Assembly: GCA_937944165.1 (NCBI GenBank)
Contig: CALDZF010000206.1
Span: 1-32,791 of the forward strand
DNA length: 32,791 nt
Source of the DNA: an uncultured Rhizobiaceae group bacterium
Lineage (GTDB): Bacteria > Pseudomonadota > Alphaproteobacteria > Rhizobiales > Rhizobiaceae
Direction: 5' to 3'
The position numbers were made by a program, and so were the translations under genes. Within the stretch, counting starts at the first letter, position 1. Each line of letters begins with the position of its first letter. Shown here piece by piece: positions 2,079-19,081 of the stretch. The notes below the pieces were generated by a model that was not told where the DNA came from, made no database searches, and worked only from the letters and a program-made list of their open reading frames with translations.

Positions 2079-2783
2079 ATGAGTGATATTGTCAACGGAA
2101 TGCTGGGTGCATTCAGACTTATCTTTTCACTGGACGCCGATCTTTTCGAGATAATTCTTCTGTCGCTTCAAGTCACGATTTCTGCTGTTATCATAGCGTC
2201 CTTCATAGGCATGCCAATGGGTGCATGGCTTGCGGTTAATCGATTTAAATTTCGTCGTTTAACAATAGCAATTTTAAATGCGCTAATGGGGCTTCCACCT
2301 GTTGTTGTTGGTTTAATTGTATACATATTTCTATCAAGATCTGGCCCACTTGGTGTTTTGAATTTACTATTTACACCAACAGCAATGATCATTGCTCAAG
2401 TAATCATTATTACGCCTTTAATTGCCTCAATCTCTCATCAGGCAATACGGGACTTATGGGCGGATTATCATGATCTACTAATTTCTTTGAATGCCACCAA
2501 AAGCCAACGTATTTTTACACTTATCAAAGATTCAAGACGTTCACTCCTTACAGCATCTCTTGCAGGTTTTGGGCGCGCCATTGGCGAAGTTGGCGCTATA
2601 ATGATTGTTGGCGGCAATATAGATCATCTGACCCGTGTTCTAACAACAGCGATTGCTCTGGAAACTGGTAAAGGAGAATTTGCCTTTGCATTGGCACTTG
2701 GCTTCATTCTTATTGCTCTCGCCATCATCGTAAACTTGGCTATCCACTCGATTTCCAAAACCGAGAGGGCAAGCACGTGGTAG
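2079..2783 (+). CDS. tupB: Tungstate ABC transporter permease (TupB-like)
   Basis: MetI-type permease with EVGAIMIVGGNIDHLTRVLTTAIALETGKGEF, typical of TupB. Directly overlaps the ATPase gene; SD GGGGG upstream. Confidence 0.87.
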   Translation: MSDIVNGMLGAFRLIFSLDADLFEIILLSLQVTISAVIIASFIGMPMGAWLAVNRFKFRRLTIAILNALMGLPPVVVGLIVYIFLSRSGPLGVLNLLFTPTAMIIAQVIIITPLIASISHQAIRDLWADYHDLLISLNATKSQRIFTLIKDSRRSLLTASLAGFGRAIGEVGAIMIVGGNIDHLTRVLTTAIALETGKGEFAFALALGFILIALAIIVNLAIHSISKTERASTW

Positions 2784-3493
2784 AGCAAATCCTCCCTTTA
2801 AGTGTTCAAGGTGTAAGCGTAAAAAAGCGTGGCAAAACCATCATTTCCGAATTAGATTTGGAACTTTCCAAGGACGGTTTAACAATCATAATGGGTCCCA
2901 ATGGAGCAGGAAAGACAACCCTTCTCAGGCTATTACATGGATTGGAACAACCAAGAACTGGCAAATTAGATTGGAATACCAATTTAAAAACCGCAAGGCT
3001 AAATCAGGCTTTCGTTTTTCAAACGCCAATCATGTTGAGGCGTAGCGCCCTTGAAAACATCATCTATCCCTTAACATTAAAAGGGGCAAGCAAGTCAGAA
3101 GCAATGCGCGAAGCTGAAAAATGGATAAACATAATCAATCTGGAACAATCAGCACACTTGAATGCAAAGCTTCTTTCGGGTGGCGAAAAGCAAAAATTGG
3201 CATTGGCGCGAGCCTTGGCAACCAAACCGCAGTTATTGTTACTAGACGAACCTACATCCAACCTTGATGGACGTGCAACAAAAGAAATAGAAGCCCTTTT
3301 AAATCAGACAAGAAAATCAGGCACACGGATTGTAATGACAACGCATGATATCGGTCAGGCAAAGCGTCTTGCTGATGAAGTAATCTTTTTATACCATGGC
3401 AAAATTCATGAAAAACAAGAAGCAATTAGTTTCTTTAAAAAACCATCAACCAAAGAAGCTACAGCTTTTTTAAAAGGAGACATTGTTGAATGA
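2777..3493 (+). CDS. tupC: Tungstate ABC transporter ATP-binding protein (TupC-like)
   Basis: Walker A GPNGAGKTTLL, signature LLSGGEKQKLALARAL, Walker B LLLLDEPTSNLD. Overlaps tupB and tupA by a few bp. Confidence 0.87.
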   Translation: MVEQILPLSVQGVSVKKRGKTIISELDLELSKDGLTIIMGPNGAGKTTLLRLLHGLEQPRTGKLDWNTNLKTARLNQAFVFQTPIMLRRSALENIIYPLTLKGASKSEAMREAEKWINIINLEQSAHLNAKLLSGGEKQKLALARALATKPQLLLLDEPTSNLDGRATKEIEALLNQTRKSGTRIVMTTHDIGQAKRLADEVIFLYHGKIHEKQEAISFFKKPSTKEATAFLKGDIVE

Positions 3494-4311
3494 AGTTCGT
3501 TGCACATCTATTGGTTTTCATATCCACAATCTTATTTTCAAATTCTGCTTACACAGCAGAAATGAAACTGGCGGTAACAACTTCATTTAACAATTCAGGA
3601 CTTTCAGACGTTCTTATTCCAGAAATCAAAAAGGACCTGGGACTGGATGTTCAACTCTTAGTAGTCGGTACAGGACAAGCTTTAAAACTCGGGCGCGCTG
3701 GCGATGTAGATGCCATTTTAGTCCATTCAAAAAAAGCTGAGGAAGAATTTGTGTCTGATGGTTTTAGCACGCATCGCCGTGAGATTATGTATAATGATTT
3801 TGTAATCATCGGGCCCTCCTCCGACCCTGCTAAAATTAGTAATTCAACAACGACTGTAGAAGCATTGGGCAAAATTGCTAAACACAAATCAATATTTACA
3901 AGCCGTGGTGATGATAGCGGAACACACCGAAAAGAAAAATCCTTATGGAAAGCTGCGGGTAAAGATCCAGAACGTTTTGAAGCAACTTGGTATCGTGCAG
4001 TTGGTGCAGGCATGGGCGCAACGCTTAATACAGCAAGTGGAATGAATGCCTATCTAATGTCAGATCGTGCAAGCTGGCTTAAATTTGGCAATAAGGGCGA
4101 ACTAAAACTACTCTTTTCAGGGGATCCAGTTTTATTCAACCAATATGCATACCTGCCTATAAACCCTTTAAAACATTCGCATGTAAAAATTGACCATGCA
4201 AAAACTTTGGAAACTTGGCTCACAAGTAAAAAAACACAAAAGATGATAGGAGCCTATACAGTTAATGGTGAGACCCTATTCACCCCCAATGCCATAAAGA
4301 AAGTAAATTAA
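3490..4311 (+). CDS. tupA: Tungstate ABC transporter substrate-binding protein (TupA-like)
   Basis: Signal peptide, TTSFNNSGL, LLVVGTGQALKLGRAGDVDAILVHSKKAEEEFV and FTSRGDDSGTHRKEKSLW, all TupA hallmark motifs. Confidence 0.9.
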   Translation: MKFVAHLLVFISTILFSNSAYTAEMKLAVTTSFNNSGLSDVLIPEIKKDLGLDVQLLVVGTGQALKLGRAGDVDAILVHSKKAEEEFVSDGFSTHRREIMYNDFVIIGPSSDPAKISNSTTTVEALGKIAKHKSIFTSRGDDSGTHRKEKSLWKAAGKDPERFEATWYRAVGAGMGATLNTASGMNAYLMSDRASWLKFGNKGELKLLFSGDPVLFNQYAYLPINPLKHSHVKIDHAKTLETWLTSKKTQKMIGAYTVNGETLFTPNAIKKVN

Positions 4312-4610: not shown

Positions 4611-5249
4611 TCAACCATCAAGCGCTAATCTTTGCCTCAAAGAAACTTTTGGCAAAGCGCGTTCTTTTTGCGGTTCATCCAAAACCCTATAAGAAGAAGC
4701 TTCTGCTACTTCGGGTTTTTCGTCTAGCACATCAATCTCTTCTGCCGCAACCTCGTTATGAATATCTTGTTCATCAGCTTCATCTGTGACTGCTTCTTGC
4801 GTATCAACTTCCTTGGCTTCATCTTCTTTTGAAACCACTTCAAGCTTTTCTTCAATTTCTTTAAGATAGCCTCTCCCAGCCTGCCATGCGGACTTAAAGA
4901 CTTTCATATTCAGGCCCTTATCACCAAAATCCTGATCGTAGTCATTGAGCCCATCAATATTTGCAAAGATTGGATTAGAACGCCAAAGAATTGAAAGCGC
5001 TTGCTTCTTGAGTTCGTCAGGAACACCGCGCTTCATAAAAACAGATAAATCACTTTCTTCATTAATTGTATCAAGGTCAATTTCTTCAGCAGCTTCACGG
5101 TTTGCAAGCAGTTCTGCTTCAAGCTCTTCGTCAATTAACGCCTGTTCTTCTTCGCTAACAACGTTTTTTTCCAGATCAACTTCAAGACCACGTTTACGCT
5201 TTGACCATCTGGAAATCATTCCCTCTTCGGTTTCTTGATCTTTAGCCAT
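4611..5249 (-). CDS. DUF3306 domain-containing protein
   Basis: N-terminal ISRWSKRKRGLE and central LSVFMKRGVPDELKKQALSILWRSNPIFANIDGLNDYDQDF, typical of DUF3306 proteins in FDH loci; long acidic C-terminal region. Confidence 0.75.
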   Translation of the reverse strand: MAKDQETEEGMISRWSKRKRGLEVDLEKNVVSEEEQALIDEELEAELLANREAAEEIDLDTINEESDLSVFMKRGVPDELKKQALSILWRSNPIFANIDGLNDYDQDFGDKGLNMKVFKSAWQAGRGYLKEIEEKLEVVSKEDEAKEVDTQEAVTDEADEQDIHNEVAAEEIDVLDEKPEVAEASSYRVLDEPQKERALPKVSLRQRLALDG

Positions 5250-5260
5250 CTACCTATGCC

Positions 5261-5797
5261 CTAATGTTTTGTATGAGATTGAAAGATTGGTGATTTACCA
5301 AACTTTTGTTCTTCAACATTCAACCTGTCACGTCTGCGTTTTATAAACTCTTCCTCAGTATGATGTTCTTCAACAAAAGCCTGAATAAAAGCGGCAACAG
5401 GTTCCGGCATGGCAACTTTTTCAATAATATCATCACCTGCATCTGTGAAATCCTGAGCGTCATATGAAGATGCTGTTACCAAATGTGGTAGATAAGGGAA
5501 CTCAGACTGTGGGTCATCATTTTCACGCAATACAACGTAAAGTTCAGGCTTATCCAACATTAGATTTAAAACCAACGCTTCCGTTTCACGCCGATGCAAA
5601 ACCAGCGGCAGACTTTCAGCGTGATAATGTGTGAACCCCTCACCCGTAACCAACTCAGTCCATTTTTCGGTTTTAGGTGGATTAAATATAACGGATACCG
5701 GTTTCCACACCCAATCAGCCCATGGATGGGAGGATTTGCGTTTTTCAACGACAATTCCCAAGGAAATATAAACCTCTCTTCCATCTACAGAACGCAA
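5261..5797 (-). CDS. DUF3305 domain-containing protein
   Basis: GIVVEKRKSSHPWADWVWKPVSVI...YHAESLPLVLHRRETEALVLNLMLDKPELYVVLRE, DUF3305-like. TTG start preceded by SD GGGAGAG. Confidence 0.75.
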   Translation of the reverse strand: MRSVDGREVYISLGIVVEKRKSSHPWADWVWKPVSVIFNPPKTEKWTELVTGEGFTHYHAESLPLVLHRRETEALVLNLMLDKPELYVVLRENDDPQSEFPYLPHLVTASSYDAQDFTDAGDDIIEKVAMPEPVAAFIQAFVEEHHTEEEFIKRRRDRLNVEEQKFGKSPIFQSHTKH

Positions 5798-5831: not shown

Positions 5832-5915
5832 AAACAAATCCTGCAAGGACTTCAAAACAACATTTGCAACTATAAAAATCCTGTATAAACTCATATGAAA
5901 TCTGGGAGGATTAAA

Positions 5916-7961
5916 TTGGAAAATTCTACGCGTTGCCTTGTATGTAATTGTGAAAAAACTATGCCACTTGATGAAAAAAAACTCTCAAAGGCAATTTCTC
6001 AAGATGTAGAAAAAATCCATATAAGTCTTTGCAGGACACAGTTGGCAAGCTATGAAGAGGCAATAAAAAGTGGTGATGATTTAACCATCGCTTGCACGCA
6101 AGAAGCGCCCCTATTCCAGGAAGTTGCTGAAGAACTAGGCTCAAACTCCAATCTAAACTTCATAAACATTCGTGAATTTGCAGGCTGGTCAAAAGAAAGC
6201 AATAAAGCAACGCCCAAAATTGCAGCACTTTTGACAAATGAGAAATATCAAGCAAAACCTGCCAGACTAAAATCTATCATCTCAGATGGCATGTGTCTTA
6301 TCTATGGTTCAGGCGAAGCTGCACTTGAAGCAGCAAGAATATTATCAGAAAAACTTTCAGTTACGCTTCTTCTAAGCGATGCAGAAGAATTCGTACTACC
6401 TATAACTGGTGAAGTTCCAATTTATCGAGGCGACATAATAAAAGCAGAAGGCTCATTTGGTAATTTTTCTATTACTGTTGATAATTACGCGCCTTTACGC
6501 CCTGCTGCACGTAACACACTTGATTTTGCTGTTGCACGAAATGGTGCCACTTCAAATTGCAGTCTTATTCTTGATATGTCAGGAAACGCTCCACTGTTTA
6601 GTGGCTACCAACACCGTGATGGATATTCACGCGTAGATGCAGGCGACCCTGCCGCAGTACTTCGTGAAACCATTAAGCTGTCTGAAATGGTAGGTGAATT
6701 CGAAAAGCCAATATATGTAGATTACAACCAGGATATTTGCGCACATTCTCGTTCGCAAAAACAAGGCTGTAATAAATGTCTTGATGTTTGTCCCGCAGGT
6801 GCCATCACTGATATTGGGGACACCGTAGAAATTGATAGTGGCATATGTGGTGGTTGCGGTTCTTGCAATTCGGTATGTCCAACAGGTGCAATTAATTATC
6901 AATATCCAACGCGCACAGACATTATTTCCAACAGCCAAAACATACTCGCCACTTATAACAATGCAGGCGGTAAAGACCCTATTCTTTTAATCCATGAAGA
7001 ACTCTCAGGGTTTGAAATGATTTCAGCAATTGCAAGATATGGTGAAGGATTGCCAGCAAATATAATACCACTTGGTATTCATGCAGTAACAACATTTGGA
7101 CATATTGAAATAACTAGCCTGATTGCTAGTGGCGCAGCGCAAGTAATCTTACTTACTAATCCACTACGAAGTGACGAATTGTCTGGGCTGGAAAAGGAAG
7201 TTGAACTCGCTAATTCGATTTTAGATGGCCTTGGTTTGAATAACCAGGCTCGTGCGCATATTGTAAGTGAAGCAGATCCACAAATTGTCGAAAACACATT
7301 ATGGAATTTATCAGACATTAAACCTTTAAAATCAGATAGCTTTAACGCATTGGGCTCAAAACGCGAGATTGGTCGCCTTACTTTTTCCAAACTGCATGAA
7401 CAGTCTAAAACAAAACCGCAAGTTATTGCATTACCACTACAAGCGCCTTATGGAAAACTGGATATTAATCAAGACGCCTGTACGCTTTGCATGGCATGCA
7501 CATCATCTTGTCCAACTGGTGCAATTACAGACACACCTGGTGAACCCAAATTACGATTTACACAATCAGCCTGTGTGCAATGTGGGTTATGCGCAAACAC
7601 CTGCCCGGAAAAAGCACTAACCCTAATACCACAACTGGATTTTACACCTGCCGCAATGCAGGCAGTAACACTTTATGAAGAAGAGCCATTTGAATGCATT
7701 AATTGTGGCACAGCATTTGCGACAAAGTCCACAATTGAACGCATATCAGAGCAACTTGCAGGAAAACACTCGATGTTTGAAGATGAAGAACGTTCAAACC
7801 TAATTAAAATGTGCGAAAATTGCCGTGTCGAAGCACAGGCAAACTCATCTAATGATCCGTTTGCTGCAGGAAGCCGCCCCCGCCCAAGAACGACAGAAGA
7901 TTATATAGCTGCAGAAAAAGGCGATCTTACTGCAAGTGATTTTTTAATAGAAGATGATTAG
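5916..7961 (+). CDS. Polyferredoxin (four 4Fe-4S motifs) with HdrA-like Rossmann/central regions, FDH-locus associated
   Basis: Four motifs: CNKCLDVCPAGAI (with an upstream Cys), CGGCGSCNSVCPTGAI, CTLCMACTSSCPTGAI, CVQCGLCANTCPEKAL. Extra Cys pairs at N- and C-termini. ORF track starts at ATG 5895, but TTG 5916 has a clear SD GGGAGGA. Confidence 0.82.
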   Translation: MENSTRCLVCNCEKTMPLDEKKLSKAISQDVEKIHISLCRTQLASYEEAIKSGDDLTIACTQEAPLFQEVAEELGSNSNLNFINIREFAGWSKESNKATPKIAALLTNEKYQAKPARLKSIISDGMCLIYGSGEAALEAARILSEKLSVTLLLSDAEEFVLPITGEVPIYRGDIIKAEGSFGNFSITVDNYAPLRPAARNTLDFAVARNGATSNCSLILDMSGNAPLFSGYQHRDGYSRVDAGDPAAVLRETIKLSEMVGEFEKPIYVDYNQDICAHSRSQKQGCNKCLDVCPAGAITDIGDTVEIDSGICGGCGSCNSVCPTGAINYQYPTRTDIISNSQNILATYNNAGGKDPILLIHEELSGFEMISAIARYGEGLPANIIPLGIHAVTTFGHIEITSLIASGAAQVILLTNPLRSDELSGLEKEVELANSILDGLGLNNQARAHIVSEADPQIVENTLWNLSDIKPLKSDSFNALGSKREIGRLTFSKLHEQSKTKPQVIALPLQAPYGKLDINQDACTLCMACTSSCPTGAITDTPGEPKLRFTQSACVQCGLCANTCPEKALTLIPQLDFTPAAMQAVTLYEEEPFECINCGTAFATKSTIERISEQLAGKHSMFEDEERSNLIKMCENCRVEAQANSSNDPFAAGSRPRPRTTEDYIAAEKGDLTASDFLIEDD

Positions 7962-7970
7962 GCTCAAGAC

Positions 7971-8297
7971 TTATTGCTTCGGCGCTGGATTTTGTTGATA
8001 ACAAAGCTCTTCTGCACGCGCCTTGAAATCAGAAAATTGCGCTTCAGATAAAACACCATCTTGTTTCATTTGGTTTACATCTCCAATACGCTTTTGAAGA
8101 CATTGCGCAAGTTCAGGATTTGTATCTGCAATGGAAGCGGTTGTTGCTTCTGGAAGACCAACCGCAACTTCATTTGAAGCAAGGCGCACAAAGTCATCTT
8201 TGTAATGGTAGTATAATAAAAACGCAAAAAGCAGTGCCAGTAATAATGCTAAAATTCTTGCAGCACCCGTATCAACAAATTTTCGTTCAATGGTCAT
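7971..8297 (-). CDS. Small membrane-anchored hypothetical protein
   Basis: 108 aa, one N-terminal TM segment (ILALLLALLFAFLLYYHY), then a soluble domain; downstream end of the FDH accessory gene string. Confidence 0.6.
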   Translation of the reverse strand: MTIERKFVDTGAARILALLLALLFAFLLYYHYKDDFVRLASNEVAVGLPEATTASIADTNPELAQCLQKRIGDVNQMKQDGVLSEAQFSDFKARAEELCYQQNPAPKQ

Positions 8298-8302
8298 TGG
8301 TA

Positions 8303-9346
8303 TTATTCCCTCCCGATTTTTAATGGCAAATTGGTTAAAAGATTTTGCGGCTTCATAATCAACTTGCGTCCTTCACTCATTGCCATTCCTAAATATACAT
8401 TCTTTCCTTGCATCGTGTCTATAACGTCGCTTTCATAAAGAAACTCAATTCGGTAAAGCGCAAGAATTCTAAATAACTCAGCTTCGCTTACACTTTCATT
8501 ATTGTAAAGTGCATTTAAAATTCGCGTTGCTTCCAAATCAAGACCAACATGCCATGACCACTTTTCATCACGAATAGATTTCATTGCTTGAATGCGAGTT
8601 TTAGCTCCTAAAAAATGCATAATCCATTTTTCAATTACCCGGCCAAGTGCATCTTGTGCTGGTTGCGTAAACCTAAAATCAATGGCCATATCAAATTGAT
8701 CTGAACGCTGCCAATATTTGGCCTTGTTATCATCCGTCATAACATCAAGGGAAATTTCACGCGCAGGCGTACCGCTTTCGGCTAATAATTGCCCTAACCC
8801 GCCAAACCCTGATTGCGAACGCATCTCGACAATTTCCTGGTCAGCAAGCATCAACTCATCTTCGCCTGTTGTCACCGCTTGCTCTCGGAAAAATAGTTCA
8901 CTAGCACGCAATTGCATTGGATCATCTTCATCAGCAAGTATATTTCTCAAAATCAAATGCACCATCTGGTCAATAAAGACTGGCGGGATTGTAATTGACC
9001 CTGATTGAAAAAGTGAAGCATACGCCCCTTCAATCGTACCATGAGACGCAAGCAAATCTCGAAAACCCAACATAAAACGATAGTTATCTGCTGCATCACT
9101 ATCTTTAATCGAAGTTATTTCACTTGTTGAAACTTTAGCAAACGGATCATCCATAAGTTTTTCAAATAAGGCATATTCATACTGACAGGATTCTTCTATC
9201 GGGTGAATTTCAGGCCTGGTAAAATAAGCACGCAAATAATCAGTTGTAACTTTTAACCATCCATTTTCATCTCGCTCAACCAAATGAAACCCGGCAGATT
9301 TCCAAAAACCGTTTTTATCATCAGACATTAATCTACAATCTCCCAA
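8303..9346 (-). CDS. DUF6352-like protein of unknown function in FDH locus
   Basis: 347-aa soluble ORF overlapping the upstream gene. Family name assigned from recalled gene order and sequence style in alphaproteobacterial FDH loci; not checked by search. Confidence 0.6.
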   Translation of the reverse strand: MGDCRLMSDDKNGFWKSAGFHLVERDENGWLKVTTDYLRAYFTRPEIHPIEESCQYEYALFEKLMDDPFAKVSTSEITSIKDSDAADNYRFMLGFRDLLASHGTIEGAYASLFQSGSITIPPVFIDQMVHLILRNILADEDDPMQLRASELFFREQAVTTGEDELMLADQEIVEMRSQSGFGGLGQLLAESGTPAREISLDVMTDDNKAKYWQRSDQFDMAIDFRFTQPAQDALGRVIEKWIMHFLGAKTRIQAMKSIRDEKWSWHVGLDLEATRILNALYNNESVSEAELFRILALYRIEFLYESDVIDTMQGKNVYLGMAMSEGRKLIMKPQNLLTNLPLKIGRE

Positions 9347-9804
9347 ACCTTCGTATGCACAGGTTCACTGGGTGGTTGCACTATGCGAAATTCTTCTCGT
9401 ATTTCTCCAGTATCATCAAAATATCGCCCTATCGCAAAAATGGTGTTGATCGGTGCATCCTCACACATTTCGACAACAAAGCTCGTTTCTTGTTGAGCAA
9501 CTTTCATTGCAGCATCCATATCAGGAGCGCCAAAATCACTCATAAATCTTTGCGCCAGTATGTTTGTAATAGCTTCAAAATCATCTTGCACAATGTCTGC
9601 AACACTGACAAATGTTGAAAATCCAAAACTTGAAATTGATAAAAACCCATTACTGAACGCTTGTTTAGCTTTACCCTTCAAGTCAGTTTTTTGCGCACCA
9701 GAAAAACAAAAGCCGCCTGGAATAGCCCACTCATCTGGCATAGCTGCCAAATCAAATACATTATTATCAGATGGGTCAAAGCGTATGGTTTTAAGAAACT
9801 TCAT
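9328..9804 (-). CDS. DUF6505-like protein of unknown function in FDH locus
   Basis: 158-aa ORF, MKFLKTIRFDPSDNNVFDLAAMPDEWAIPGGFCFSG. Overlaps both neighbours (translational coupling). Confidence 0.6.
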   Translation of the reverse strand: MKFLKTIRFDPSDNNVFDLAAMPDEWAIPGGFCFSGAQKTDLKGKAKQAFSNGFLSISSFGFSTFVSVADIVQDDFEAITNILAQRFMSDFGAPDMDAAMKVAQQETSFVVEMCEDAPINTIFAIGRYFDDTGEIREEFRIVQPPSEPVHTKVWEIVD

Positions 9805-10529
9805 TTAAAGCTACCCATTGAGTTTCCAAGCACTTCGATAGTATCAAGCGAACGCATTTCATCATTGAATTTAACAAGTGCATTACCGCTTTCATCCAAT
9901 CCCAAATACTCGTTTTCTGACAACCCAGATATTAATTTATCGTCCTTGGAAAACCGCCCAACCCACTGGTCATGAATAGGCTTAAACCCCTCTTCACTCC
10001 AGGTATGTATCCAGTTAAGCAAATGACGAGACGTTGATTCCAATAATTGCGTTCTGGAGATATCACCACACCCCTCATCCCACATTGTAGTGCGCCAGGC
10101 TTCTTCTCCAGGGTCGTTGATGAATTTTTCTGGTTTCATTGATATATCAAGCGATACAATCATCCAATCAGGCAACTCTGCAGTAGATGTTTCGCTTAAT
10201 GCCAATCCACAAAGGCCAATTTGTGCTTCATTCAATAAAATAACATTTGGCCATTGATAATTTATAGCAACCTCTGGTGGGCATAATGTTCCAGCGGCAT
10301 CACCAAAAGCGACCATTGCAACATAAAGCATCTCCCCACATCGTGAAACATCAACTTCAGGCTCAAGCACAAGTGCAAAACGCAGATTATATTGATCATC
10401 TGACCAAATTAGATCACCAGCACTAAACTCACCTTTTAAAACATGCGCTTTTGCATGTTTTAAAGGTGACTTACCAGAAGCAATTCGATGCCCTTTTAAC
10501 AAAGGAGGAAAAGTAGGAGCTTGTATCAT
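9801..10529 (-). CDS. Biotin/lipoate protein ligase-like protein with DUF4444-type C-terminus
   Basis: Layout matches the BPL_LplA_LipB_2 + DUF4444 family: FPPLLKG..., PPEVAINYQWPNVILLNEAQIGLCGLAL, C-terminal WSEEGFKPIHDQW. Overlaps the DUF6505-like gene. Confidence 0.72.
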   Translation of the reverse strand: MIQAPTFPPLLKGHRIASGKSPLKHAKAHVLKGEFSAGDLIWSDDQYNLRFALVLEPEVDVSRCGEMLYVAMVAFGDAAGTLCPPEVAINYQWPNVILLNEAQIGLCGLALSETSTAELPDWMIVSLDISMKPEKFINDPGEEAWRTTMWDEGCGDISRTQLLESTSRHLLNWIHTWSEEGFKPIHDQWVGRFSKDDKLISGLSENEYLGLDESGNALVKFNDEMRSLDTIEVLGNSMGSFK

Positions 10530-11853: not shown

Positions 11854-13188
11854 CTATTGCGCCTTTGTAGCTTCTTTTAAAAAGCGGATTAAGTCATCCC
11901 GCCGCTCTATTTTCTTTAATCGTTGAACAGGCATTTTAGTTCCTGGCAGCATAACATCAGGTCCATCATCAAACAAACGGGCAATTGTGTCTTCATCCCA
12001 TATTACATCAGTTTCCAATAAAGCTTTAGAATAATTATAGCCTGCAAGAGTTCCTGCCTTGCGTCCAAAAACATCATAAAGTGTTGGCCCTGCTCTATTG
12101 GCGCCATCAGGTGTTAGCGTATGACAAACACTGCACTTGCGACGAAATTCCAATTCGCCCAAGTCTTTTGTATCACGCACTTGAAACCGCCTTGGAAATT
12201 CAGAACGGTTTTGTTGAATTTTATTGGGTGAAATTTGCCAGCGCGAGGCAAAATCATCCAAACCGACATGATAAATTTGGTTAGTGCCTGATACAAAATC
12301 AAAATCCCATATGGGGCCAAAAGTTACCTCATTATTTTCAATAACCTTGCCAGAAGAAGCTGCAAAAACCTCTATCCATCCAGAACCATCACCATAGGCA
12401 GCCAATGCTTTATCAGATGATAATTTGACACTTTGTATGGGGCGTTCACGCTTGGCAATTTCTTGTATCTTTTCAGCTTTTTCAATACCAACGATTGCTA
12501 CAGCGCCATCAATTGCGCCAAACAAAACGCGGTCATCATCTAATAATACAATCGAATTTATACCCCAGCCATGACGGTATATGGGACGTATCATTTCTTG
12601 TTTTTCTACATCCCACTCCAGTATTTGACCATCAACGGCACCAGAATAAAGTTTTTTACTATCCTTTGAAAAGCTTACCGTATTTACATTACCACGATGG
12701 CCTGAAAGAACTGCCAGTTCTTTTCTTGTCTCAAGGTTATAAAGACGAACCGTTTCATCCCATCTTGCAACTGCTGCAAGCCTACCATCTTTACTCACAT
12801 CAACATCAAGTACCTTATCAACAGGCGCATCAATACGAGTAATCAACTTACCAGAATTCAAATCCCAAATGCCGAGCGAACCATCATCACTTACAGAAAT
12901 CGCTTCATTTCTGGTTGGTACAAAAACAACATCATTAACCGCTGCATCATGGCCATCTAAACGGTTTAAAAGCTCAGCACCCTCTTCGCCAATTTTCCAA
13001 TGGATAATTGAATAATCAAATGATGCCGTTAAAACATGTTCACCATCAGCGGCAATGCTAATTGCCTTGATAGGCCCACCATGACCTTTGAGTGTATCTG
13101 GCAGTTCTTGTGCATGGGCTGAGAAAAAACAAATCCCCACCAGCAAAAAGCCAGAGAGGATTCTTTTTAAATTCAAAGTTTCAATCAT
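11854..13188 (-). CDS. Periplasmic WD40 beta-propeller fused to C-terminal cytochrome c domain
   Basis: Signal peptide (LKRILSGFLLVGICFFSAHAQ), several WD repeats (LKGHGGPIKAISIAADGEHVLTASFDYSIIHW...), C-terminal haem motif CSVCH with candidate distal Met in PGTKMPVQRL. ATG 13188 preferred over the TTG 13206 implied by the ORF track. Confidence 0.87.
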   Translation of the reverse strand: MIETLNLKRILSGFLLVGICFFSAHAQELPDTLKGHGGPIKAISIAADGEHVLTASFDYSIIHWKIGEEGAELLNRLDGHDAAVNDVVFVPTRNEAISVSDDGSLGIWDLNSGKLITRIDAPVDKVLDVDVSKDGRLAAVARWDETVRLYNLETRKELAVLSGHRGNVNTVSFSKDSKKLYSGAVDGQILEWDVEKQEMIRPIYRHGWGINSIVLLDDDRVLFGAIDGAVAIVGIEKAEKIQEIAKRERPIQSVKLSSDKALAAYGDGSGWIEVFAASSGKVIENNEVTFGPIWDFDFVSGTNQIYHVGLDDFASRWQISPNKIQQNRSEFPRRFQVRDTKDLGELEFRRKCSVCHTLTPDGANRAGPTLYDVFGRKAGTLAGYNYSKALLETDVIWDEDTIARLFDDGPDVMLPGTKMPVQRLKKIERRDDLIRFLKEATKAQ

Positions 13189-13206
13189 CGGTCTAAAACC
13201 TGACAA

Positions 13207-14304
13207 CTATTCCGCGGGATGAGGCTTGCTCGCTAAGCGGTTTTCTTCGTCCATTTCTTCAACCCAAAGAGAATGGTGTTCCATTGCCCAATTTTCATCA
13301 ACTTCGCCAGAAGTCATTGCATCAAGCGCACCTTCCATTCCTACAGAGCCAATATAAATATGAGCGATGATAACAACGATCATAAAGACTGCCATTATCG
13401 TATGCCAAGTTGCTTGTAGTTGTTGTTCTTGGATAGCACCAATATTCGTAGCAAATTCAGTTCCAAATATACTATTTGAAATTGCCGCTGTATCTGCCAT
13501 CATTGTTGTTGTAAATGGGTTTAGTAGCGCCCATCCAGACATTGAAATTGAAACGCCACATAAAATTACAATCCAGAAGATAATCTTTTGGCCTGCATTA
13601 AATTTCTTGGCGGGAGGATGACCTTTACCAATCATTCCGCCACCTTTTAATATCCAAACAAGATCATGACGATTTGGGATGTTATGAACAATCCACAATA
13701 CAGCAACCAACACCAAAGCTACCATGAATGCAAAACCAACATAGTTATGAACAAACTTACCAAAAATTGTAATGGTTGAAAAAGCACTTGCGCCAATTAC
13801 AGGTAACAATACGGTTTTGCCGAAGATTAAGTTTAACCCGCTTAAGGCCAAAACAATAAAACTGGAAGCAAGCAGCCAATGCGAGCCACGTTCTAATAAT
13901 GTAAAACGCGTAATCGTTCTGCCAGACGCACCTTTCGAAATTTTCATGCGTCCGCGTAATGCAAAAAATACCGATAGTAAAAGTAAAATACCAAGAATTG
14001 CCCAAGCAGAATATCGTGGTAACGGGCCATTTCTCATTTGGCGCCATTCTTCACCTTGACTTTGTATCATCAAGCCAGATCCAGCATTTTGGCCAGCAAC
14101 AGTACCTTGACCGCCTTTACGAATTTGCCGCCAAAGCTCTGCATCAGACGATGACCCACTGGTTGTATTACCTGGCACAGCGCCTTCAACTGGTGCTCCA
14201 TTATCGTTGGATTGCGCGTAACTAGGTGTTAAAACTGTAAGCATAGAAACGACAACCAACATGGTTGCAAAAAGAATAGTTAGAAATGACTTCGCCAATT
14301 TCAT
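13207..14304 (-). CDS. fdhC: Formate dehydrogenase gamma subunit (cytochrome b556, FdoI/FdhC-like)
   Basis: C-terminal cytochrome b TM core (RFTLLERGSHWLLASSFIVLALSGLNLIFGK...FGKFVHNYVGFAF...WHTIMAVFMIVVIIAHIYIGSVGMEGALDAM) with an N-terminal signal peptide and periplasmic extension. Confidence 0.9.
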   Translation of the reverse strand: MKLAKSFLTILFATMLVVVSMLTVLTPSYAQSNDNGAPVEGAVPGNTTSGSSSDAELWRQIRKGGQGTVAGQNAGSGLMIQSQGEEWRQMRNGPLPRYSAWAILGILLLLSVFFALRGRMKISKGASGRTITRFTLLERGSHWLLASSFIVLALSGLNLIFGKTVLLPVIGASAFSTITIFGKFVHNYVGFAFMVALVLVAVLWIVHNIPNRHDLVWILKGGGMIGKGHPPAKKFNAGQKIIFWIVILCGVSISMSGWALLNPFTTTMMADTAAISNSIFGTEFATNIGAIQEQQLQATWHTIMAVFMIVVIIAHIYIGSVGMEGALDAMTSGEVDENWAMEHHSLWVEEMDEENRLASKPHPAE

Positions 14305-14456: not shown

Positions 14457-15053
14457 TTATCCACCAGTCTTCTGGCCGTAGGCAGTACCCCAACCCCATG
14501 CACCAGCACCGAAACCACGTGCAACCACGCGCTCACGATAAACAGCAGAGACCACGTCACCGTCACCAGCAAGAAGTGCTTTTGTCGAACACATCTCTGC
14601 ACAAAGTGGCAATTTACCTTCCGCAAGACGGTTACGCCCATATTTCTGGAATTCAACCTGAGACTCATCCTCTTCAGGTCCACCAGCACAGAAAGTACAT
14701 TTATCCATCTTGCCGCGTGAACCGAAATTTGAAGCCTGCGGGAACTGTGGCGCACCAAATGGGCAAGCATAGAAGCAATACCCACATCCGATACATAAAT
14801 CCTTGGAGTGGAGAACCACACCATCTTCTGTATCGTAGAAGCAATCCACAGGACAAACAGCCTTACAAGGCGCATCCGAACAATGCATACATGCAACAGA
14901 GATTGAGCGCTCGCCTGGCTTGCCATCATTGATGGTTACAACCCGGCGGCGGTTCACCCCCCACGGTACTTCATGCTCATTTTTACAAGCCGTAACACAA
15001 GCATTACACTCGATACAGCGTTCAGCATCACAAAGAAACTTCATTCTAGCCAT
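14457..15053 (-). CDS. fdhB: Formate dehydrogenase beta subunit (4Fe-4S ferredoxin-type)
   Basis: CIECNACVTACKNEHEVPWGVNRRRVVTINDGKPGERSISVACMHCSDAPCKAVCPVDC...CIGCGYCFYACPFGAPQFP, typical FDH-type iron-sulfur subunit. Confidence 0.93.
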   Translation of the reverse strand: MARMKFLCDAERCIECNACVTACKNEHEVPWGVNRRRVVTINDGKPGERSISVACMHCSDAPCKAVCPVDCFYDTEDGVVLHSKDLCIGCGYCFYACPFGAPQFPQASNFGSRGKMDKCTFCAGGPEEDESQVEFQKYGRNRLAEGKLPLCAEMCSTKALLAGDGDVVSAVYRERVVARGFGAGAWGWGTAYGQKTGG

Positions 15054-15067
15054 AGTATAATCCTCCC

Positions 15068-17962
15068 TTAAGCTCGTTCAATTTTGCAAAGCGTTGCTTT
15101 GGTTTCTTGCATTTGGGTAACAGAGTCATACCCGTAGGTTTGAGCTGTATTGGTCGATTCACCCAAGACATAAGGATCTGCACCAGCGGGATATTTATAT
15201 CGCCTGTCTTCACCCTCTAAGTGACCACCAAAGTGGAACGGCATAAAGGCAACGCCTTTGCCCACTCGTTCCGTTATCATGGCCATTACTTTTACCTTGG
15301 CGCCTTCAGGACCTTCAACCCAACATTGTTCTCCATTACGGATTCCCAAATCATTGGCGTCAGCTGTATTTATTTCAACAAACATATCTTGCTGTAATTC
15401 AGCCAACCATGGGTTTGATCGTGTCTCATCACCACCACCCTCATATTCAACCAAACGGCCGGATGTGAGAATAATTGGATAATCCTTTGAAAAATCATTT
15501 TTCTGGATAGAGGCATATGCAGTTGGAAGACGGTAGAATTTCTTGTCTTCATAAGTTGCATATTTATCAAGAAGATCACGACGCGGCGTATAAAGTGGCT
15601 CACGGTGCAGTGGCACAGGGTCAGGAAAGTTCCATACAACCGTACGAGCCTTCGCATTACCAAATGGCGCACAACCATGTTTGATTGCCACACGTTGAAT
15701 ACCACCAGAAAGATCTGTCTTCCAGTTTGTATTCTCACCTGCAACAGCATCAATTGCAGCCTTTTCTTCAGATGAAAGATCTTTATCCCAGCCAAGCGAT
15801 GTTAACATCGCCATGGTAAATTCAGGATAACCGTCTTCAATCTCAGATCCTTCAGACCATGAACCTTCTGCTAGCAGATTTTCACCGTCTTTTTCCACAC
15901 CAAATCTTGCACGGAAAGTAAGTCCCCCCTCACCTACAGGTTTTGATGGATCATAGAGGATTGGCGTACCAGGGTGTTTCATTTCTGGTGTACCCCAACA
16001 TGGCCAAGGCATGCCGTAATACTCACCATCAAGTGGTCCGCCAACAGCCTGCAAAGTCGTTTTATCAAAGGTATGTTGATGCGCCATATGCATACGTAGA
16101 CGCTCAGGAGACTGACCTGTATAACCAATAGTCCACATGCCCTTGTTAAACTCACGTGTAATATCTTCGATCAAAGGCTCGTCATTCTCAACCTTGATGT
16201 TTTTGAAGAGTTCATCCGCAAAGCCCAATTTATTTGCAAGCTTATATGCAATTGTATGGTCAGGCAGTGATTCAAACAATGGCTCAACCACTTTATCACG
16301 CCACTGGATTGAACGGTTGGAAGCCGTTACTGAACCATATGTCTCAAACTGCGTACATGCCGGCAATAAATAAACGCCATCTGTACGGTCTGAAAGAATT
16401 GCAGAAACAGTTGGATATGGATCAATCACAACCATAAGGTCAAGTTTTTCCATTGCTGTTTTCATTTCTTTCATACGGGTTTGAGAATTTGGAGCATGGC
16501 CCCAGAAAACCATACCACGTACCTTGTTTGGATTATCCATATTCTCGACATCTTCAAGAACACCGTCGATCCAGCGAGAAACCGGAATACCCGTTAGGTT
16601 CATCAGATTTTTCTCTTTACCATCAGCCCCCGTTTCTTTTGCAAAACGGCCTTTCAGATAATCAATGTCTGTATCCCAAACACGAGCCCAGTGCGCCCAT
16701 GAACCATCTTTCAGGCCATAGTACCCAGGAAGTGTGTGTGAAAGAACACCAAGATCTGTTGCACCTTGAACATTGTCGTGGCCTCGGAAAATATTTGTTC
16801 CACCACCGGCTCTACCCATGTTACCTAGTGCAAGTTGAAGCACACAATATGCACGTGTATTATTGTTACCATTCGTGTGCTGAGTACCACCCATACACCA
16901 GATAACAGTACCAGGACGGTTTTGTGCCATAGTCCGGGCAACCCGCTTTAATTGAGAACCAGGAACACCAGCAACGCGTTCAACTTCTTCGGGGTTCCAT
17001 TTGGCAACTTCAACCTTGATTTGATCCATACCCCAGACACGCTGGCGAATGTATTCTTTATCTTCCCAACCATTTTCAAAGATATGCCATAAAATACCCC
17101 AGATTAAAGCAACGTCTGTACCAGGGCGAAAACGAACATATTCATCAGCATGAGCTGCAGTACGTGTAAAACGCGGATCACAAACAATCATGGGTGCGTT
17201 ATTTTCTTCTTTAGCCTTTAAGAGGTGAAGAAGTGAAACCGGGTGCGCCTCTGCAGGGTTACCACCAATCACGAAGATTGCTTTAGAGTTATGAATGTCA
17301 TTATACGAGTTCGTCATCGCACCATAGCCCCAAGTGTTTGCAACACCGGCTACTGTGGTTGAGTGACAAATACGCGCTTGGTGGTCAACGTTGTTTGTAC
17401 CCCAATAAGCAGCAAACTTACGAACCAGATACGCCTGCTCATTGTTATGTTTCGCAGAACCAAGCCAGTAGACAGAATCAGGACCAGACTCATCGCGAAT
17501 TTTCAACATGGAGTCGCCAACTTCATTGATGGCATCATCCCATGAAAGCTTTACCCACTTGCCATCAGCAAGTTTCATTGGGTACTTCAAGCGACGTTCA
17601 CCATGCGCATGCTCACGAACAGCAGCGCCTTTGGCACAATGTGCACCAAGATTAAATGGTGAATCAAAAGCCGGCTCCTGGCCAATCCAAACACCGTCTG
17701 ATACCTCGGCTAAAACCGTACAACCGACAGAACAATGAGTACATACTGATTTAATAACATCAATTTTTCCGTTTCCTGCACCAGCAGCAACTGCCTTTGT
17801 AGCAGTGCCTGTGGTTAGGGCACCAGCGGCGGCAATACCACCTACAGCCAAACCTGAATTCTTTAAGAAATCACGACGGTTAACCGTTGTACCCGAAACT
17901 GAAGCGGTGGTTGATGACAGTTGGGGGCGTCTCGCAACCCCTCCTACCTTCTTCCTTAGCAT
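15068..17962 (-). CDS. fdhA: Formate dehydrogenase alpha (catalytic, Mo/W-bisMGD) subunit, Tat-exported
   Basis: Tat motif NRRDFLKNSGLAVGG; 4Fe-4S site CTHCSVGCTVLAE...GAHCAKG; active-site region HQARICHSTTVAGVANTWGYGAMTNSYNDI with Cys ligand; C-terminal molybdopterin dinucleotide-binding domain. Confidence 0.95.
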   Translation of the reverse strand: MLRKKVGGVARRPQLSSTTASVSGTTVNRRDFLKNSGLAVGGIAAAGALTTGTATKAVAAGAGNGKIDVIKSVCTHCSVGCTVLAEVSDGVWIGQEPAFDSPFNLGAHCAKGAAVREHAHGERRLKYPMKLADGKWVKLSWDDAINEVGDSMLKIRDESGPDSVYWLGSAKHNNEQAYLVRKFAAYWGTNNVDHQARICHSTTVAGVANTWGYGAMTNSYNDIHNSKAIFVIGGNPAEAHPVSLLHLLKAKEENNAPMIVCDPRFTRTAAHADEYVRFRPGTDVALIWGILWHIFENGWEDKEYIRQRVWGMDQIKVEVAKWNPEEVERVAGVPGSQLKRVARTMAQNRPGTVIWCMGGTQHTNGNNNTRAYCVLQLALGNMGRAGGGTNIFRGHDNVQGATDLGVLSHTLPGYYGLKDGSWAHWARVWDTDIDYLKGRFAKETGADGKEKNLMNLTGIPVSRWIDGVLEDVENMDNPNKVRGMVFWGHAPNSQTRMKEMKTAMEKLDLMVVIDPYPTVSAILSDRTDGVYLLPACTQFETYGSVTASNRSIQWRDKVVEPLFESLPDHTIAYKLANKLGFADELFKNIKVENDEPLIEDITREFNKGMWTIGYTGQSPERLRMHMAHQHTFDKTTLQAVGGPLDGEYYGMPWPCWGTPEMKHPGTPILYDPSKPVGEGGLTFRARFGVEKDGENLLAEGSWSEGSEIEDGYPEFTMAMLTSLGWDKDLSSEEKAAIDAVAGENTNWKTDLSGGIQRVAIKHGCAPFGNAKARTVVWNFPDPVPLHREPLYTPRRDLLDKYATYEDKKFYRLPTAYASIQKNDFSKDYPIILTSGRLVEYEGGGDETRSNPWLAELQQDMFVEINTADANDLGIRNGEQCWVEGPEGAKVKVMAMITERVGKGVAFMPFHFGGHLEGEDRRYKYPAGADPYVLGESTNTAQTYGYDSVTQMQETKATLCKIERA

Positions 17963-18074: not shown

Positions 18075-18272
18075 CTAGAACTTCGCAGAATCATAATAGG
18101 TTTTGACATGCGCAGTTTCGCGGTAGCCAGAACCCTTTATTTCCTCAACTTCGGAAGCTTGAGCAGCACCGCCTGCAACTATTGTTGCGCCAGTCATTAC
18201 TGTTCCTAGACTTGCAAGTTTAAGGAAATCACGCCTGTCCGTGGCGTTCTTTTCTTTTTTGCTATCGACCAT
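18075..18272 (-). CDS. fdhX: Small Tat-signal FDH-associated protein (FdhX-like)
   Basis: ATG 18272 with SD GGAGGG: MVDSKKEKNATDRRDFLKLASLGTVMTGATIVAGGAAQASEVEEIKGSGYRETAHVKTYYDSAKF. The longer ORF-track start (18332) has no obvious support. Confidence 0.8.
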   Translation of the reverse strand: MVDSKKEKNATDRRDFLKLASLGTVMTGATIVAGGAAQASEVEEIKGSGYRETAHVKTYYDSAKF

Positions 18273-18361
18273 ATGGCCCTCCAATTCTCTGTCCCTCCAT
18301 GATGTTAAACTCACATGGTATAAATTTAACATTCGGCACGATGACAGGAAATCGTACCTAT

Positions 18362-18393
18362 AAAAAAAACGCTCACTCCATGGAGTAAGCGTT
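18362..18393 (-). terminator. Palindromic terminator/attenuator overlapping the chaperone stop region
   Basis: On the minus strand: AACGCTTACTCCATGGAGTGAGCGTTTTTTTTA, a 26-nt near-perfect palindrome with a T-tract, spanning the last codons of the TorD-like gene. Confidence 0.65.
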
Positions 18394-18975
18394 TGTTTCT
18401 ATTTCTATAAACAGTCTGCCTATTGCACCGACTGGTTGATAAAACTTACTGAGTTGAGCAGCTTCCAGATCTTTAAAGAAGTGCACCGCCCAAGGCTCTA
18501 TATGTTGGGTATAGAACTCCCTTTGGGTTTCCATATTTGCGGGAGTACCGTACCTCCCAATAATAAGACCAGCCATCATTTCAAAAAGCGATCCTATGTG
18601 ATCTTCAGGTTCTTTAACAGCTTCATTGCGCTCAATGCCTAACTCACGCATGGAATTGCGAAGCTTGGCTAAAGGCTTTTCATTTAAAAAACCTGTTAGG
18701 TAATAAGAGCCATAAGGCAAAAGTTCACCACGTCCCATACCAATGAAAAGAGCGTTATATTCTTCAAGTACCGTTGCTTCATCAGTAGAAGCGGCCAGCT
18801 TTGACAATGCTTTAAAGGCATTGCCCATATCAGTATCATCCCCTTCTAGGGATTTTAAATCATTCAATATATCTTTGGATGGAGATTTGAATAAAACATT
18901 GCCAATCAATGCGTAAAGATTTGCACGCATTTCATCTTCAGCACTAATAGTTATTTCATTAGCCTTTACTGACAA
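18373..18975 (-). CDS. TorD-family chaperone for the FDH catalytic subunit
   Basis: Helical TorD-like protein, RANLYALIGNVLFKSP...GSYYLTGFLNEKPLAKLRNSMRELGIER...EPEDHIGSLFEMMAGLI. TTG 18975 preceded by SD GAGGAGA is the likely start (ORF track: 18990). Confidence 0.85.
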   Translation of the reverse strand: MSVKANEITISAEDEMRANLYALIGNVLFKSPSKDILNDLKSLEGDDTDMGNAFKALSKLAASTDEATVLEEYNALFIGMGRGELLPYGSYYLTGFLNEKPLAKLRNSMRELGIERNEAVKEPEDHIGSLFEMMAGLIIGRYGTPANMETQREFYTQHIEPWAVHFFKDLEAAQLSKFYQPVGAIGRLFIEIETNAYSME

Positions 18976-19081
18976 ACTGTATCTCCTCAATTCAGAGTTA
19001 ATACCATGAATCCTAACCTGTCAATCAAAACCAGCACCTTTCAAGTATAAGTCATAAAACACAAAAACTAATGCCCTAAAG

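Follow-up and report, generated by a model that had tools for sequence, protein, structure and literature searches.

Genes named 'fer4' and DUF3305/3306 were noted earlier near TorD/formate dehydrogenase (FDH) operons (PMC4464133). In S. oneidensis, whose W-containing and oxygen-tolerant formate dehydrogenase SoFdhAB is studied for CO2 reduction (PMC13397495), SO_4506 is annotated as an 'iron-sulfur cluster-binding protein', and its transcript changes with those of SO_4507 (the chaperone FdhT), SO_4509 and SO_4510 (PMC5826389). We analysed a 32,791-nucleotide stretch of DNA from an uncultured Rhizobiaceae group bacterium (the window), which encodes a polyferredoxin at 5916..7961 (+ strand). 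SO_4506 and this gene share their gene position, and from gene order we infer that they are orthologues, with the difference that the gammaproteobacterial members are short forms without the N-terminal domain. The literature searched, outside which most subscription journals lie, holds neither a functional study of the polyferredoxin (mutant or biochemical) nor an assignment to HdrA, only annotations and expression data. The results presented here reveal that the protein is a chimera of HdrA, MvhD and HycF modules.

The reading frame proposed in the preliminary description is real. Its start looks better placed at TTG 5916 (681 aa) than at ATG 5895 of the ORF list (688 aa), because a Shine-Dalgarno sequence, GGGAGG at 5904-5909, precedes the TTG; residue numbers are counted from ATG 5895. 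The motifs quoted in that description, LIYGSGEAALEAARILSEKLSVTLLL and GSFGNFSITVDNY, are found in the translation, as are its four 4Fe-4S motifs, the middle region and the C-terminal cysteines C601, C604, C640 and C643. It had overlooked that the N-terminus offers a fifth cluster site and that the last third of the protein is HycF-like, including a peripheral metal site. For the window protein, Pfam returns only generic 4Fe-4S ferredoxin families. A family alignment of 37 rows (A1) was built from relatives found at 80 loci in alpha-, beta- and gammaproteobacteria.

The AF2 model of the window polyferredoxin (pLDDT 87.8, pTM 0.83) finds HdrA as its top seven PDB matches (best E 2e-12), followed by HycF, with MvhD also found, and a second predicted model, of a beta-proteobacterial member, gives the same fold picture (E 1e-14). 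The AlphaFold comparison with HdrA and MvhD/FlpD suggested earlier thus came out in favour of both, HdrA ranking first and MvhD being matched with a probability of 1.00. Whole-chain TM values are low (~0.2-0.3, rmsd near 28 A), and the overall domain arrangements of HdrA and the polyferredoxin do not superpose (TM about 0.2); in these models the likeness therefore holds domain by domain and not in the overall arrangement.

The HdrA-like architecture of the front part is supported by PDB profile searches, profile-profile comparison and the AF2 fold matches. A profile of residues 8-285 (278 residues), searched against 177,635 distinct PDB sequences, matches four HdrA sequences (E 2e-5 to 1e-4), which are the sole PDB matches below E=0.1, the next entry being an unrelated one at E 0.42. 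The alignment spans the N-terminal domain, the Rossmann strand-helix-strand and then the GNF segment across HdrA's inserted ferredoxin. Using HdrA proteins fetched from other genomes for hhalign, the profile-profile score reaches 57.9, compared to a column-shuffle maximum of 25.3 (n=60).

The HdrA-type N-terminal domain (residues 13-130; 5931..6284, +), recognised by HdrA-only profile matches and hhalign, is predicted to hold a [4Fe-4S]: C17, C19, C46 and C67 are invariant in 116/116 long-form relatives and lie in register with the CxC, C and C of HdrA (hhalign probability 91.3). It is followed by a remnant Rossmann beta-alpha-beta unit (residues 133-160, GSGEAA; 6291..6374, +), identified through fold matches and family conservation, and by the HdrA 'GYVGNF-VTV' strand pair (residues 176-202, GDIIKAEGSFGNFSITVDNY; 6420..6500, +), identified through profile, hhalign and conservation. 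In beta-proteobacterial relatives, as in HdrA, a two-cluster ferredoxin is inserted immediately behind the GNF segment; it is present in 58/116 long-form members and absent from the window protein, in whose lineage it was lost. The HdrA-type C-terminal ferredoxin (residues 282-335, two 4Fe-4S; 6738..6899, +) rests on motif and family profile matches, and its first motif is atypical, C282-x9-C292-x2-C295-x3-C299.

The polyferredoxin thus shares with HdrA (5odc_A, 8rvu_A, 7bkb_A) the N-terminal four-Cys domain, the Rossmann strand-helix-strand and the GNF strand pair in the same order, and the family also keeps the order of the inserted ferredoxin (in the relatives) and the C-terminal two-cluster ferredoxin. 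It differs in having no conserved FAD motif, second TrxR half or CSxC cluster segment and in carrying an extra HycF-like end; the window member, in addition, has no inserted ferredoxin. Its HdrA2 NCBIfam score is 61.7 bits, below the cut-off of 1100, and no HdrB/HdrC partner genes were found among the window ORFs scanned. Since the gammaproteobacterial short forms do without the N-terminal domain, the conserved core consists of the C-terminal HdrA ferredoxin, the MvhD-like domain, the HycF-like ferredoxin and the Cys4 site. In 6/14 of these short forms (L161, L163, L164 and L166 among them), C321 is changed to A or V and a ligand of the second cluster is gone, suggesting a 3Fe-4S or altered cluster.

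The middle region, previously described as FlpD/MvhD-like, forms an MvhD/FlpD-fold domain without Cys (residues 345-475; 6927..7319, +) according to Foldseek and shuffled hhalign. Foldseek matches the window AF2 model to MvhD with a probability of 1.00 (TMt 0.67, rmsd 2.7 A), and over the window and beta-proteobacterial models the MvhD matches have probabilities of 0.99-1.00 and TMt of 0.67-0.71. The hhalign score against MvhD/QmoB, 27.0, lies above all shuffles (maximum 18.2, n=100), at a low hhalign probability of 24%. The middle-domain profile (A3) finds no MvhD match in PDB sequences; Pfam FlpD is touched by 4/37 members (best E 0.011), and the PF02662 threshold is not reached in the window's genome. 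Residues 345-500 of the window protein contain no Cys, and thus no [2Fe-2S] ligands. HdrA2 and QmoB-type HdrA-MvhD fusions likewise have the MvhD fold straight after the C-terminal ferredoxin, whereas the polyferredoxin is without the [2Fe-2S] cysteines and has a further ferredoxin behind. ORFs of the sampled genomes that carry QmoB/FlpD proved to be a separate protein set, mostly from other genomes. Many sampled genomes also contain ORFs of ~520 aa with a moderate FlpD domain (L153-L158), some two in tandem, which are distinct from the polyferredoxin family.

HycF carries a CxxC-x34-CPxC metal site at its interface with FdhF (PMC9474812). The end of the polyferredoxin resembles HycF/HyfH, formate hydrogenlyase subunit 6 (7z0s_F, 7z0t_F), in having a two-cluster ferredoxin and, behind it, a CxxC-x34/35-CxxC metal site. 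The ferredoxin (residues 520-580, two 4Fe-4S; 7452..7634, +) is defined by motif, profile and fold matches, and the Cys4 site, C601-xx-C604-x35-C640-xx-C643 (7686..7832, +), by profile, fold and conservation in the polyferredoxin family. The AF2 model matches HycF with a TMt of 0.62-0.72 at 24-26% identity, and the HycF/HyfH NCBIfam score is 66 bits, under the cut-off of 204. Unlike HycF, this end is fused to HdrA/MvhD modules outside any hydrogenase complex, and no hydrogenase genes occur among the window ORFs scanned. Taken together, the window polyferredoxin is predicted to bind five 4Fe-4S clusters and one Cys4-bound metal, and no flavin.

The predicted absence of flavin bears on the flavin-based electron bifurcation known from HdrA, where K409 and E356 are the bifurcation residues (PMC12054007), and which the preliminary description had raised. 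The window protein has the GxGxxA dinucleotide motif in full, but family-wide GxGxx[GA] is present in only 44/131 relatives, and the first glycine, G138, is near-invariant as the sole motif position so conserved. No Rossmann/FAD family of Pfam matches the polyferredoxin or the A1 members. The half of the TrxR domain that holds FAD is missing, because only about 80 residues separate the GNF segment from the C-terminal ferredoxin, and the HdrA region bearing K409/E356 is missing from A1 by length. A clear HdrA ancestry and the GxGxxA of the window member would speak for an HdrA-type flavin bifurcating enzyme; the motif in only 44/131 members, the missing TrxR half and the vanished MvhD [2Fe-2S] cysteines make such an enzyme highly improbable, and the idea of a carry-over of bifurcation is not upheld. 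From its sequence, the polyferredoxin is probably flavin-free.

The enzyme encoded nearby is, by sequence, an FDH3-class/SoFdhAB-type formate dehydrogenase. Its catalytic subunit FdhA (15068..17962, -), with the Tat signal VNRRDFLKNSG, is a homologue of the W-containing SoFdhA (9vap_A, 1437 bits). It is accompanied by the four-cluster FDH3 beta subunit FdhB (14457..15053, -; NF038355 346 bits, cut-off 240; 9vap_B) and by the cytochrome b561 FdhC, or FDH gamma (13207..14304, -; PF01292, TIGR01583 above cut-off). A small Tat-target protein of formate dehydrogenase regions (18075..18332, -; TIGR02811 above cut-off) is encoded between fdhA and the gene of a TorD/NarJ-family chaperone (18373..18990, -; PF02613, TorD/DmsD NCBIfam matches below cut-off). 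The divergent neighbour of the polyferredoxin is a DUF3305 protein (5261..5797, -; PF11749), which lies beside a DUF3306 protein (4611..5249, -; PF11748), and a TupB-ATPase-TupA tungstate-type ABC transporter (2079..4311, +; matches below equivalog cut-offs) is found on the side away from the FDH genes. The picture of a cytoplasmic polyferredoxin beside a periplasmic FDH is supported by the FdhA Tat signal, and by eye no Tat signal is seen on the polyferredoxin, whose location would be cytoplasmic. As FdhA-FdhB-FdhC make up a complete formate-to-quinone chain already, the 'unexplained electron route' evoked earlier is possible but not needed.

Co-occurrence was assessed in one set of 399 Pseudomonadota genomes. 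The polyferredoxin is present in 62 of them, SoFdhAB-type FdhA in 61 and DUF3305 in 61, and the same 61 genomes, spanning 14 families and 36 genera, have all three (Fisher p 9e-72, a value that ignores kinship between genomes). The single extra polyferredoxin genome is G219. The polyferredoxin gene lies within 12 kb of fdhA in 60/61 genomes and 35 kb off in one alphaproteobacterium. Most beta/gamma loci examined have the order DUF3305-(DUF3306)-polyferredoxin-TorD-FdhA-FdhB-FdhC, and in the alpha loci the polyferredoxin and DUF3305 are divergent neighbours whose cluster also includes TorD. A correlation between distance matrices (r 0.94-0.95) was set aside because it has no species-tree control.

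FdhD is encoded in 61/61 FDH3 genomes and FdhE in 2/61, and PF04216 (FdhE) has no match in the window's genome. FdhE, an accessory of the E. coli periplasmic FDH-N/O with Cys-bound iron sites, can be likened to the polyferredoxin in its proposed role and in Cys-bound iron, although their sequences are unrelated. A replacement of FdhE by the polyferredoxin was considered, and is not claimed, because the counts (FdhE in 2/62 polyferredoxin genomes versus 12/80 without it) ignore kinship between genomes and the TorD-type chaperone alone could equally substitute for FdhE.

The exceptions to the pairing with FDH are the loci L160, in genome G219, and L202, in a related genus, where a short polyferredoxin adjoins a TorD/NarJ-family chaperone gene. 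These operons encode two different Tat-signal molybdoenzymes, each with its own FeS subunit: one of 944 aa is ArrA/PhsA-like with an NrfD subunit, the other of 869 aa has a c-type cytochrome nearby. Searches of G219 for SoFdhAB-type FdhA, FdhD, FdhE and DUF3305 found none of them. The polyferredoxin therefore tracks the chaperone and an exported Mo enzyme rather than formate. Given that L160 and L202 belong to one family, the move to other enzymes may have happened only once.

Mainly on the basis of this tracking, we prefer a maturation role, and consider with moderate confidence that the polyferredoxin is a cytoplasmic, probably flavin-free HdrA or HdrA-MvhD descendant serving as redox maturation factor of Tat-exported molybdo/tungsto-enzymes. 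The earlier suggestion of cofactor maturation thereby gains comparative support from how strictly the genes co-occur, from their order and from the re-use of the polyferredoxin beside other Tat-exported molybdoenzymes. Compared with the HdrA/HdrA-MvhD ancestor, the inserted ferredoxin and the FAD-holding half have been lost, and the C-terminus has gained a HycF-like ferredoxin together with its peripheral metal site. Its partners here would be the TorD-family chaperone and DUF3305/3306, and its client the FDH3/SoFdhAB-type formate dehydrogenase. In the mechanism that we infer, the HycF-like module may dock on the FdhA-FdhB precursor while the chaperone holds it in the cytoplasm, in the way that HycF contacts HycB and FdhF within formate hydrogenlyase. 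Low-potential electrons would then run along a chain of about five 4Fe-4S clusters to those of FdhB and FdhA, allowing cofactor and clusters to be inserted or checked while reduced, ahead of Tat export. The cytoplasmic location, the docking, the delivery and direction of electrons and the exact maturation step are all proposed here. A point against the proposal is that, to our knowledge, E. coli FdhF matures without a polyferredoxin-like protein.

Co-occurrence and gene order fit a maturation factor and a physical electron-transfer partner alike. As an electron-transfer subunit, the polyferredoxin would accept electrons from FdhAB, in a cytoplasmic pool or before export, at its HycF-like end and use them to reduce ferredoxin or some other acceptor in the cytoplasm, a soluble counterpart of the wiring in formate hydrogenlyase. 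Such a function would be in line with the homology to HycF, the formate hydrogenlyase wire, with a chain rich in clusters and with the obligate pairing with FdhA. It is nevertheless unlikely considering the Tat signal of FdhA and the full FdhB-FdhC quinone chain encoded, the related proteins that accompany the chaperone to other exported molybdoenzymes, and the fact that testing window genes in 80 loci turned up no recurring partner gene for a cytoplasmic acceptor. The many invariant cysteines, the adjoining chaperone genes and the presence with other multi-cluster enzymes could also indicate an Fe-S cluster or iron carrier or scaffold dedicated to loading the FdhB and FdhA clusters. We regard this as less likely still, since the folds are electron-transfer modules with buried clusters, unlike known Fe-S scaffolds and carriers.

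If the polyferredoxin is needed to build SoFdhAB-type FDH, it would be an overlooked ingredient for production of the enzyme in other hosts, and if the maturation role is true, HdrA-type proteins would extend from bifurcation to enzyme assembly. As an obligate, uncharacterised partner in 61/61 FDH3 genomes, it makes the question of what matures FDH without FdhE directly testable. More tentatively, a general class of cytoplasmic redox chaperones can be imagined, HdrA-derived, flavin-free and multi-cluster, which would dock on Tat-destined Mo/W enzymes while these are bound to a chaperone and would deliver or test electrons, releasing for export only an enzyme that is wired and reduced.

The L160 operon, which bears a polyferredoxin, also encodes (7846-8781, +) a 312-aa TorD/NarJ-family chaperone with its own C-terminal CxxC-x29-CxxC module, resembling the Cys4 site of the polyferredoxin and HycF. 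In the window, a protein in which a WD40 beta-propeller is joined to a c-type cytochrome domain at the C-terminus (11854-13206, -) is encoded next to fdhC and is possibly a periplasmic electron acceptor. The genes at 8303-10529 (-) encode DUF6352, DUF6505 and biotin/lipoate ligase-like proteins, which accompany the FDH cluster in 17/80, 20/80 and 26/80 loci, respectively (alphaproteobacteria and Marinobacter). A CoxG-like protein (PF06240; 19553-19999, -) is encoded near the FDH cluster and adjoins a TspO/MBR protein.
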